Shown here one piece after another: positions 17,377 through 50,599 of a DNA stretch of 56,376 bases (position 1 is its first letter; each line of letters begins with the position of its first letter). Origin of the DNA: Lachnospiraceae bacterium. GTDB taxonomy: Bacteria > Bacillota > Clostridia > Lachnospirales > Lachnospiraceae. Where the stretch lies: positions 1-56,376 of the forward strand of contig JAGATV010000027.1 of NCBI GenBank assembly GCA_017621075.1. Direction: 5' to 3'. The notes under the pieces are model-generated. The model had not been told where the DNA came from, ran no database searches, and was given only the letters and a program-made list of their open reading frames with translations. The translations under genes were made by a program, and so were the position numbers.

Positions 17377-17835
17377 TCATATCTGATCTTTTTCCGTAAT
17401 ATTCTCGATCATCTTTTTGATGGTGCGCAGGAACACTTCCATATCCTCCGGGGGGATATCCTGTCTGAGCTTTTTTTCCGTCTCCCGGATATTTTCGGAA
17501 ATAGTGCTGTCGATCTGTCTGGCACGCTCTGTCAGGACGATCCGCTTACAGCGGCCGTCGTCTCGGGATGCCTCCCGCCTCACCAGATCATTCTTTTCCA
17601 TGAGATGCAGTACCTCCGTCAGTGTGGACTTCCCAATATTCAGCGCACTCTCCAGCTCCCGCTGGTAGACAGCATGATCCTGACTGTGGGCCAGATATCC
17701 CAGTATCCAACGCTGCATCATAGTCAGGTTCCGGATGTCGTCCTCCTGCTCGCTCCGCTCTTTTGATTTGCGCAGTTCATTCCCCAGCTTTCTCACCAGA
17801 AATCCCACTGCATTTTCTCTGTCATCCACAAACAT
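17377..17835 (-). CDS. MarR-family transcriptional regulator of the ABC exporter
   Basis: 152 residues from the ATG at 17835 (GGGGTGA upstream). The open frame runs 28 codons further to 17919, but that part overlaps the promoter, so the later start is correct. Winged helix at about 45-110 (YQRELESALNIGKSTLTEVL, KNDLVRREASRDDGR) with MarR-type dimer helices at both ends. It probably represses its own operon through the TTCGTGCAC sites just upstream and is released by an exporter substrate. Confidence 0.92.
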   Translation of the reverse strand: MFVDDRENAVGFLVRKLGNELRKSKERSEQEDDIRNLTMMQRWILGYLAHSQDHAVYQRELESALNIGKSTLTEVLHLMEKNDLVRREASRDDGRCKRIVLTERARQIDSTISENIRETEKKLRQDIPPEDMEVFLRTIKKMIENITEKDQI

Positions 17836-17861
17836 TCCGATCTCACCCCTCAAAAAACAAA

Positions 17862-17919
17862 TTCGTGCACAGATAGTTCGTGCACGAATCATTTTATGCT
17901 TTATCGTTTTTCCTGTCAA
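17862..17919 (-). promoter_or_regulatory. MarR-ABC promoter and operator
   Basis: On the minus strand TTGACA (17914-17919), 17 bp, TAAAAT (17891-17896). Immediately downstream, at the expected transcription start, stands the perfect 12-bp palindrome TTCGTGCACGAA (17877-17888), and TTCGTGCAC is repeated at 17862-17870, 15 bp away. This is the placement expected for an autoregulated MarR operator. Confidence 0.85.
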
Positions 17920-47785: not shown

Positions 47786-48526
47786 TTAAAAATAAGAGTT
47801 GAAAAGGGCTCCTGTGTTGTAAGCACTGTTGTAACTGCCGTTAAAGGTATAGGTGTCCGCCTTGGACAGTGCATAGTCCGCATTATAATTGATCATGGAC
47901 GCAGATGCGGATACGCTGTAACCATAAGAACCGGTGCTGCCGAACAGACTTTCCACCCTGCTCATGTCCGCCTTGAGAAATGCCTCCTTATCAAGGGACA
48001 ATGTATTGTCCTGATTGATAGTGATACCCACCTGTCCCAAAAGCTTTGCATTGACAGAAGTGGTATTTACCATACTGTCCACCCTGTTTGCGATGGTATT
48101 GTTATCTACGTCATCGGCTGCGGAAAGCACCTGATTGTAATCCTGCACAAAAGCATTCACCGCACTGTAGATCTTATCCTGATCCTGCCTGTCTTTTGCA
48201 AACAGAGAGTCTTTTCCTTTGGCAAGAAGGGCATCTGCGGACTCCTTCAATGCATCCGTAGTACTCTGTACCTTGGTATACGCCTTGGCAGTCTCGCTGA
48301 GCGCCGTTTTCTGATTCCGATTGACTTCCGTATTCTGAGCCAGTTTCTTTACGGAATCACTGCTGTTCTTCCCATAATATGCCTTCATCAGCTTGCCGTA
48401 GCTTCCGTTCTTGATGCTGGCATAATCGGAAAGCCAACTGCTTGTGCCCGATCCGTAGGTTCCTGTCGTCCCCATTCCTGAGAACAAAAAAGAATAATCT
48501 GTTTTTGCCTGAAGATTGATACCCAT
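47786..48526 (-). CDS. Small FliD-C-like protein, copy 2
   Basis: 246 residues from ATG 48526, with AAGGAGG 9 bases upstream; the frame start nine codons earlier is poorer. Collinear with copy 1 at 304-1074: INLQAKTDYSFLF, IKNGSYGKLMKAYY, ADALLAKGKDSLF, VQDYNQVLSAADD, LLGQVGITINQDNTLSLDKEA, and both end in LFN plus three residues. The second half fits the FliD C-terminal domain. No signal peptide or flagellar neighbour. The ribosome-site surroundings (ACAAGGAGGTAG) are also shared between the copies. Confidence 0.62.
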   Translation of the reverse strand: MGINLQAKTDYSFLFSGMGTTGTYGSGTSSWLSDYASIKNGSYGKLMKAYYGKNSSDSVKKLAQNTEVNRNQKTALSETAKAYTKVQSTTDALKESADALLAKGKDSLFAKDRQDQDKIYSAVNAFVQDYNQVLSAADDVDNNTIANRVDSMVNTTSVNAKLLGQVGITINQDNTLSLDKEAFLKADMSRVESLFGSTGSYGYSVSASASMINYNADYALSKADTYTFNGSYNSAYNTGALFNSYF

Positions 48527-48631
48527 AACACTACCTCCTTGTGTGATACCCATGCATCAGCAACGCAGCATCCGTGCCGCATTTCCACTTTTACTATAGC
48601 ACATTTTCCTTGGTTTGCAAAGAAATTTCCC

Positions 48632-49951
48632 TTACATTAATACTTTTTGGATATTTTTCTTGATCTTTTCCGCCAAAAGCTCATACTGCGAGATCTCTTC
48701 CTCTGACAATCCGGAAAATCTTGCACAATCAAAATCCTTCTGGGCAATGGCAAAATCTGCCAGCACCCTGTCTGCTGCCGAAAGCAGCGTAATGGTCAAC
48801 AGCTTTTCGGTGCCCTTGTCGCTTTTGGTCTCCTCCACCTTGATATATCCTTTGGAAACCAGCTTCTGCAGCGTGTAGGAGAGCCGTCCCCGGGAAATAT
48901 CCGTACAATCCACCAGTTCCTTCCGGGTATGTACCGACTTTGCATGGCTCAAATACAAAAGCAGTCTTGCCTCCACCAGCGTCATATCGTGCTTCACTGC
49001 CACAGGTTCCAGATAATATTCCAGCAGCTTGCGATTCCTGTAGGCATCCATCAGGATCCCTTCGCCGGCCACTGCGTCGGGACTTGCGCTGGTGCGCTCG
49101 TCCCCCAGCTTTCTTGAACCGGGCAGAAGGGACAGGGGTACGATCCCGTCCCCGGCAGCATCTATCAGGAATTTGTAGACCTGCAGCCGGTTCTTTTCGT
49201 AGTCTGCTTCATCCAGCACATGCTTATAAAAATTGTTGTAATATTCAAATACCATCAGCTTCATCTTGATGGTCCTTGTGATGCTGGCTCCCTGGCTCAC
49301 TAAAGACCCCTTTGTCTTTACATAGTAATAAACCGGTGTCTTCAAAGCATAAAATCTCTCGGCATGACGGATATACTCCAGATTGAACATAAAATCCTCG
49401 CACCAACTGATCTCTGCATCCATACGCAGATGATACTTTTCCACAATATCACGCCGGTACAGCTTGTTCCAGAGCACACCATAGTAAAAGTCCGCCGGAT
49501 TCTCCATCATGTGGGCCGCAAATTCTTCCCGGGTAAGGAAGCCGTCCTCGTCGATATCACCCTTTGGAGACACCCTCTCTCCCACCACCCGGTAGAAATC
49601 AGCGATCACCATATCACAATCTCTCTCGGTAGCCGCCCTGATCAACTGTTTTGTGGCATCCGGCGTAATCCAGTCGTCACTGTCCACAAACTGCAGATAA
49701 GTCCCTCTCGCCTTTTCTATGGCTCCGTTCCTGGTGTCGGATACCCCTGTATTCTCCTTGTGGATCACCCGGACCCGGCTGTCCTTTGCCGCATATCCGT
49801 CACAGATAGCTCCGGTCGTGTCCTCACTTCCGTCATCTGCCAGAATCAGCTCAAAATCCGTATACTCCTGGTTCAGTATGCTGTCCACGCATCTTTCAAT
49901 ATATTTTTCTGCGTTATAAACCGGCACGATAATGCTTACCATAGGTACCAT
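48632..49951 (-). CDS. Family 2 glycosyltransferase fused to a MarR-type winged-helix domain
   Basis: 439 residues from ATG 49951 (GGGAGTGG upstream; an ATG at 49975 has none). Residues 1-230 are a GT-A glycosyltransferase: SIIVPVYNAEKYIERC, LADDGSEDTT, and the DXD-type motif FVDSDDW. Residues about 322-439 are a full MarR domain: TLVEARLLLYL, the helix-turn-helix TRKELVDCTDISRGRLSY, the wing KGYIKVEETKSDKG and two long dimer helices ending EISQYELLAEKIKKNI. Between lies a helical linker. No signal peptide. GT2 enzymes act at the membrane on envelope glycans; a DNA-binding tail is unexpected. Confidence 0.82.
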   Translation of the reverse strand: MVPMVSIIVPVYNAEKYIERCVDSILNQEYTDFELILADDGSEDTTGAICDGYAAKDSRVRVIHKENTGVSDTRNGAIEKARGTYLQFVDSDDWITPDATKQLIRAATERDCDMVIADFYRVVGERVSPKGDIDEDGFLTREEFAAHMMENPADFYYGVLWNKLYRRDIVEKYHLRMDAEISWCEDFMFNLEYIRHAERFYALKTPVYYYVKTKGSLVSQGASITRTIKMKLMVFEYYNNFYKHVLDEADYEKNRLQVYKFLIDAAGDGIVPLSLLPGSRKLGDERTSASPDAVAGEGILMDAYRNRKLLEYYLEPVAVKHDMTLVEARLLLYLSHAKSVHTRKELVDCTDISRGRLSYTLQKLVSKGYIKVEETKSDKGTEKLLTITLLSAADRVLADFAIAQKDFDCARFSGLSEEEISQYELLAEKIKKNIQKVLM

Positions 49952-50077
49952 GAATTCCACTCCCTGTTTCTTCATTTTTCTTATAGTCAGAAAATATTTT
50001 TACATTTTTCCTGTAATCTGTTTTATAATACTACAAAATGGTGTTAAATTATGTAAAGTAATATTATCACACTTACA

Positions 50078-50599
50078 ATGAGATCGAAGATGAACACGAA
50101 CAGACCAACGCTGACCCCCGAGGAAGAATCCTTGATTTCCGGGATCTACGAAAAATATCATTCAAACATATACCACTATGTATATTCCTATATAAAGGAT
50201 GAATACGTAGCAAGCGATATCACTGCTGATACTTTCGCACTTGCCTGTGAAAAGCTGGATCAGTTCAAGGATCATCCCAATCAGGCAGGATGGCTCTACC
50301 TGACTGCCCAGAATAAAATCAAAGAATTCTACCGCAGATTAAAGAATATGGAACTGATCACCAACGATGATTCCGACCCCATTTTCCATCGCTACCACAA
50401 CTCCGCCTATCATAAAAAAGAGTTGGAGCTGACTCTGCGCGCTTCCCTGACCCCGGAGGAATACAAGCGTTTTCAGCGCTATTTTATCTGGGGCTACACC
50501 ATATCTGAAATGGCAGACATGGAAGGCATCACCAATTTCAATATGTCCATGCGTCTGTCACGGCTTCGCAAAAAACTGAAAGTCTTACTGCGCCCATAA
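50078..50599 (+). CDS. ECF-type RNA polymerase sigma factor
   Basis: 173 residues. Region 2 at about 20-90 (IYEKYHSNIYHYVYSYIKD, DITADTFALACEKLDQF, AGWLYLTAQNKIKEF) and region 4 at about 120-173 (LTPEEYKRFQRYFIWGY, SEMADMEGITNFNMSMRLS). No anti-sigma gene follows; the next gene on the right is convergent. The start has no clear ribosome site (an in-frame ATG at 50090 is similar), so expression may be weak or leaderless. Divergent from the GT2-MarR gene, 126 bases apart. Confidence 0.85.
   Translation: MRSKMNTNRPTLTPEEESLISGIYEKYHSNIYHYVYSYIKDEYVASDITADTFALACEKLDQFKDHPNQAGWLYLTAQNKIKEFYRRLKNMELITNDDSDPIFHRYHNSAYHKKELELTLRASLTPEEYKRFQRYFIWGYTISEMADMEGITNFNMSMRLSRLRKKLKVLLRP

Follow-up and report, generated by a model that had tools for sequence, protein, structure and literature searches.

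A glycosyltransferase joined to a complete MarR fold in gut bacteria, and a possible assembly role for the fold

The window analyzed here is a 56,376-nucleotide stretch of DNA from a Lachnospiraceae bacterium. The minus-strand gene at 48632..49951, defined from the open reading frame list and Pfam with its start set from relatives, encodes a 439-residue fusion of a family 2 glycosyltransferase (GT2) and a MarR fold. The frame is open up to an ATG at 49975 on the same strand, giving a longer version of 447 residues, and a likely ribosome binding site read from the sequence, AGGGAGTGG (49957..49965, minus strand), precedes the ATG at 49951. A gap of 126 bases (49952..50077) lies between the fusion gene and a divergent ECF sigma factor gene on the plus strand (50078..50599; Sigma70_r2 2.4e-9, TIGR02937 above cut-off). 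The downstream neighbour on the minus strand (47786-48553) gave a sub-threshold match to FliD_C, and the genome of the window carries three flagellin-type genes, all on contigs other than that of the fusion.

Residues 1-275 (49127..49951, minus strand) make up a GT-A glycosyltransferase domain with C-terminal helices, as assigned from PF00535, the predicted model and fold matches. PF00535 matched at 4.6e-39 (134.5 bits, cut-off 23.3) and was found in 71/71 family members scanned. The domain contains a DSDD motif (49673..49684, minus strand, residues 90-93), which we take to be the metal/nucleotide-sugar motif, and a WCED motif (49394..49405, minus strand, residues 183-186), which presumably holds the putative catalytic base. 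The three aspartates of DSDD and the final one of WCED are invariant in 84/84 fusions (D98, D100, D101 and D194 when numbered from the ATG at 49975), and the glutamate of WCED is kept in 83/84. A Foldseek search with the predicted model gave 5hea, TarS, TarP and RmlT as matches of the GT part, with TarS, TarP and RmlT among the best (E 8.2e-19 for TarS 5tzi and 3.3e-17 for TarP 6hnq, with a large whole-chain rmsd of 15-18 Å), and a weak sequence match was found to GmaR (22ao, E 2.1e-4). The sequence and fold matches of the GT part are glycan-making glycosyltransferases. Judged from its sequence and predicted model, the fusion belongs to the GT2 enzymes of the TarP/TarS/RmlT fold class, and its catalytic motifs are intact. 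It is predicted to transfer a sugar, most likely to a polymer or protein of the envelope.

A linker of residues 276-298 (49058..49126, minus strand; JSD 0.463), with lower model pLDDT in part, leads to the complete MarR fold of residues 299-438 (48638..49057, minus strand). The single-chain predicted structure shows all elements of the winged-helix MarR fold, a1 to a6, in this tail. Three minus-strand elements of the fold are of particular concern here: helix a1 with a conserved YRxRKLL..YLE motif (48992..49057; JSD, pN/pS and control comparison), the basic recognition helix a4 with variable exposed positions (48854..48892; JSD and two control comparisons), and the wing, which is the least conserved element of the tail (48785..48844; JSD and length count). 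The original prediction described a single frame that runs from a GT2 glycosyltransferase into a full MarR fold, and this is confirmed by Pfam matches to both halves together with the structure prediction; the profile check on the C-terminal part gave a MarR_2 match of 43.3 bits, above the cut-off of 27. Across the family, 56 of the 71 members matched the MarR profile at E<=0.01, while the profile scan found no match in the divergent members L197 and L226.

The fusion also proved genuine and conserved. We found 243 relatives, and the best 80 of the 243 all match over nearly the whole query; the fusion is encoded as one closed frame in 79/80 kept loci (L085 was excluded from the full-length set), which rules out a missed stop or a frameshift. 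The family is gut-bacterial, and record titles place the GT group in Lachnospiraceae and Oscillospiraceae. With any tail, and with the window's own genome included in each count, the group was present in 58/397 sampled genomes of the window's family (E<=1e-70), 6/391 genomes of the class sample (E<=1e-65) and 2/378 genomes of the phylum sample. The full fusion is found in 5/37 genus genomes, own included (further genus genomes: G250, G336), and these five genus fusions are scattered on the GT tree: L001 groups with L038 and L010 with L063, L011 and L012 share one clade, and L009 stands apart. Patchy presence and scatter on the tree suggest horizontal movement or many losses. The genome of the window has a second GT copy (L282:1123-1701, G000:C18), which is 67% identical and breaks off at a contig end beyond residue 202. 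Transport as phage or plasmid cargo was rejected: a scan of viral contigs with two peptide patterns confirmed zero relatives, and zero plasmid records covered 80% of the query. One 4.3 kb phage-labelled record, derived from human fecal samples, has 96% coverage of the query and is perhaps bacterial DNA.

We used a quick maximum-likelihood tree of 140 GT domains to trace the origin of the tail. MarR-tailed rows were defined by an alignment reaching query residue 425, independently of Pfam. The 112 such rows, among them the window's, fall into one group, in which a single tail-less row, L163, is nested; it is a probable case of tail loss with no trace of MarR nearby. The 7 kb of the nested tail-less copy L218 likewise held no MarR remnant (best E 0.19). 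Loci L118-L155 were left out of the 112-row set, so that the fusions L119, L120 and L122 are uncounted; identical proteins were counted once, and 28 outgroup glycosyltransferases are uncounted, 22 of them also being outside the tree. A single gain of the MarR tail is the simplest reading, and the tree of GT sequences fits one origin, with 47/135 inner branches open, including the one at the base of the MarR group.

The group neighbouring the MarR-tailed rows consists of 20 rows, of which 13 are tail-less, four have a UDG-superfamily tail and three have an unnamed tail. Since tail-less sisters exist, the tail is dispensable for this class of glycosyltransferase. The UDG-tailed sisters come from four genomes (L215:3669-5039, L205:2286-4181, L203:3153-4718 and L214:1-1173), and over the matched stretch their GT domains share 45-53% identity with that of the window. 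TIGR04274, the DNA-deoxyinosine glycosylase profile, scored above cut-off in 3/3 UDG-tailed proteins scanned; L214 is truncated at the contig end, and its UDG tail was assigned by eye. L205 combines GT, UDG and tRNA_edit domains in one protein. The third tail type, in L207, L208 and L210, spans about 100 residues or more and looks helix-turn-helix-like by eye; the two scanned (L208 and L210) had zero Pfam matches. The tail-less relative L201:1555-2827 begins one base after an O6-methylguanine methyltransferase (Ogt) gene. Among the matches listed from the open-access literature, none reports either GT-MarR or GT-DNA-deoxyinosine-glycosylase fusions.

To follow selection along the fusion, pN/pS was estimated from 29 non-overlapping pairs of the fusion family alone, some of which are not nearest neighbours. 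The values were 0.22 for the GT domain and 0.45 for the MarR tail, and within the tail 0.31 for a1, 0.40 for a6, 0.45 for a4, 0.47 for a2-a3, 0.49 for a5 and 0.60 for the wing. The tail is therefore kept by purifying selection. Conservation within the family tail (JSD) reaches its maximum of 0.524 equally in a1 and a3, and is 0.410 in a4, 0.375 in a5 and 0.273 in the wing. Within the family, a5 is thus less conserved than the recognition helix a4, whose pattern SR..LS..LQKL is mostly retained.

Free-standing MarR proteins served as controls for these values. Helices a1, a5 and a6 are the dimerising helices in MarR proteins. Control 1 comprised the window's own free-standing MarR at 17377-17919 and 29 relatives, 30 aligned proteins in total, from loci fetched among the 45/150 genomes with a match; its members were picked for their resemblance to a single MarR of the window and could include different paralogues, and its mean identity is like that of the family (0.369 vs 0.373). 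The fusion family is more conserved than control 1 in a1 (0.597 vs 0.375), a5 (0.462 vs 0.402) and a6 (0.520 vs 0.436), and less conserved in a2 (0.500 vs 0.588), a3 (0.584 vs 0.660), a4 (0.484 vs 0.656) and the wing (0.369 vs 0.503). The fold alignment does not include L009-L012. The dimerising helices have thus gained conservation, and the DNA-binding lobe has lost it. Control 2 comprised 30 free-standing MarR proteins, which we take to be FabT-like, from loci fetched among the 64/120 genomes with a match. Compared with it at unequal mean identities (0.507 and 0.567), the 30 fusion tails closest to the window's are again more conserved in a1 (0.689 vs 0.559) and a6 (0.637 vs 0.521) and less conserved in a4 (0.553 vs 0.738), the wing (0.446 vs 0.562) and a2 (0.588 vs 0.745). 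Two elements run contrary to this reading in control 2, as a3 is higher in the fusions (0.645 vs 0.554) and a5 is lower (0.566 vs 0.626). Together, the two alignment-based comparisons show a shift of constraint to a1 and a6, away from the recognition helix and the wing.

The wing differs from the controls in make-up as well. A fixed wing with a D-x-R motif is a hallmark of the MarR family. Measured on the control definition, wing length ranges from 10 to 55 among the 112 fusions, some of which have long K/E-rich inserts, and is 17 in 60/60 control proteins; D-x-R occurs in 23/112 fusions, compared with 30/30 proteins in each of control 1 and control 2. The recognition helix is less conserved in the fusions than in both controls, yet it is basic, with a mean charge of +3.25 vs +1.87 in control 1. 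Because of this basic helix, the tail could still bind nucleic acid.

No general neighbour or operon partner was found around 84 fusion loci. The largest neighbour cluster, ABC ATPases at 13/84 loci, is a broad group that lumps paralogues. In one clade the fusion closely follows mutL, at six loci, five of which also have mutS (L073, L076, L079, L081 and L082, with mutL alone shown at L072; names assigned by eye). In one group, at seven loci (L062, L067, L070, L088, L093, L096 and L112), a conserved membrane protein, presumably PrsW-like as judged by eye, is convergent to the fusion.

The divergent ECF sigma factor had been put forward as the partner whose shared promoter region the tail would target. 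In a survey of 187 loci (117 + 70), many with short flanks, an ECF homologue near the fusion was found only at the window's own locus and at L099, where it is 25% identical and about 3 kb from the fusion. Conversely, no fusion lay within about 1.5 kb of 19 other ECF-homologue loci of the genus, where many contigs end early. The ECF promoter as a conserved target was rejected, as the pairing is present only in the window's locus among the searched loci. We also searched for operators. Among 111 upstream regions, nine had perfect 8-base arms and 7% had a palindrome at p<=0.05 (30 shuffles each), in a search that may miss an operator with imperfect arms; the best inverted repeat in the 126-base gap matched at 7/8 positions, which was equalled by half of 300 shuffles. 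Autoregulation through a palindrome was accordingly rejected, with upstream palindromes near chance in the 111 regions and in the window's gap. Thus the part of the original prediction that described the fusion of a GT2 with a full MarR fold holds, and the part that coupled it to gene control through the ECF promoter is not supported: the DNA-reading elements are less conserved than in the controls (a3 excepted in control 2), and the promoter regions carry palindromes only at about the chance level. The proposed survey of genomes had a similarly divided result, in that the fusion recurs, while the neighbours differ and the ECF pairing is unshared.

We then propose a mechanistic model in which the MarR fold of a surface-type glycosyltransferase has become a dimerisation or docking module, with assembly as its main present job. 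We favour this model tentatively and rate it at somewhat less than an even chance. In a single event, a tail-less ancestor would have acquired a MarR regulator at its C-terminus and then retained it, presumably in that order. Through helices a1, a5 and a6, two copies of the enzyme may associate, or the tail may dock against the GT domain; either arrangement would position the active sites with respect to the acceptor, probably an envelope polymer or protein. The role of the tail would resemble that of the parts at the C-terminus of TarS and TarP that mediate trimerisation, and a conserved operator would presumably be absent. The invariant GT motifs, the single group of MarR-tailed rows, the purifying selection on the tail, the shifted constraint, the variable wing, the absence of a general neighbour, of ECF pairing elsewhere and of a palindrome excess at the loci searched, and the TarS and TarP fold matches speak for this model. 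Against it stand the basic recognition helix with its retained pattern, the equal conservation of a1 and a3 and the low value of a5 within the family, the a3 and a5 values relative to control 2, the existence of tail-less sisters and the large rmsd of the TarS and TarP superpositions.

One alternative is that the fusion is a trigger enzyme, whose MarR tail works as a DNA-binding repressor of its own or distant genes, with the state of the glycosyltransferase or its donor supply altering the binding. The complete MarR fold, the basic recognition helix and the purifying selection on the tail are all consistent with it. However, the recognition helix and wing are less constrained than in the two MarR controls, wing length is free and D-x-R is retained in only 23/112 fusions, upstream palindromes are near chance, no general neighbour appears at 84 loci and the ECF pairing occurs only here. 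We consider this alternative unlikely. In another alternative the tail binds a partner protein, such as a regulator or the acceptor protein, instead of DNA, which the conserved a1 and a6 surfaces would suit. GmaR offers a precedent, as it combines a glycosyltransferase with an antirepressor that works through contact with a protein (PMC9638930), and the weak GT match to 22ao (E 2.1e-4) and the three flagellin-type genes in the genome point the same way. However, the C-terminal part of GmaR is made of TPR and antirepressor elements instead of MarR, the flagellin genes lie on a different contig from the fusion, and a general partner gene is absent from the 84 loci; such protein-directed moonlighting is quite unlikely.

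It is also conceivable that DNA or RNA is the substrate or the anchor of the glycosyltransferase, and this would explain the MarR, deoxyinosine glycosylase and tRNA-editing modules at once. The UDG tails in four genomes (three by profile and L214 by eye), the GT-UDG-tRNA_edit protein, the tail-less copy one base after an Ogt gene, and the six loci of one clade that follow mutL, five with mutS (names by eye), speak for such a link. Against it, a repair gene is never a general neighbour at the 84 loci, the sequence and fold matches are glycan-making enzymes, and adjacent genes can fuse by chance; we regard it as improbable. The more specific idea that this GT2 group was repeatedly joined to nucleic-acid modules because the enzyme works at or next to nucleic acid, for instance by glycosylating a base in DNA or RNA or a protein bound to DNA, is highly improbable. 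The fusions with a DNA glycosylase, on which this idea rests, are the most unexpected part of our results, and they sharpen the question of what the acceptor of the glycosyltransferase is.

If the assembly model is true, selection has maintained a transcription-factor fold within an enzyme even as constraint on the DNA-reading parts of that fold loosens, and the family would allow a direct test of how a regulator turns into a structural part. A close comparison is with the wall teichoic acid glycosyltransferases TarS, TarP and RmlT, which have the GT-A family 2 fold in common with the fusion. PMC9837562 describes trimerisation elements at the C-terminus of both TarS and TarP and a patchy distribution of tarP on prophages. 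No MarR part appears in the accessible descriptions of TarS and TarP, whereas the fusion has one. According to PMC10672168, the processivity of TarS is 18-fold higher in the trimer than in the truncated enzyme, and the trimer and monomer of TarM are similarly active; the latter counts against an assembly role.

The Listeria protein GmaR combines a GT domain with a gene-control function in one chain through TPR and antirepressor helices (PMC9638930). It is a precedent for a glycosyltransferase with a gene-control part, and its description there includes no MarR domain; conversely, a GmaR-type TPR and antirepressor part is not present in the fusion, whose C-terminal part is MarR. The GT2 proteins with a DNA-deoxyinosine glycosylase tail have a related GT domain and are sisters on the tree, with a TIGR04274 tail instead of MarR. 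Free-standing MarR and SlyA proteins are unfused, whereas the tail described here is joined to an enzyme and has a less constrained recognition helix and wing.
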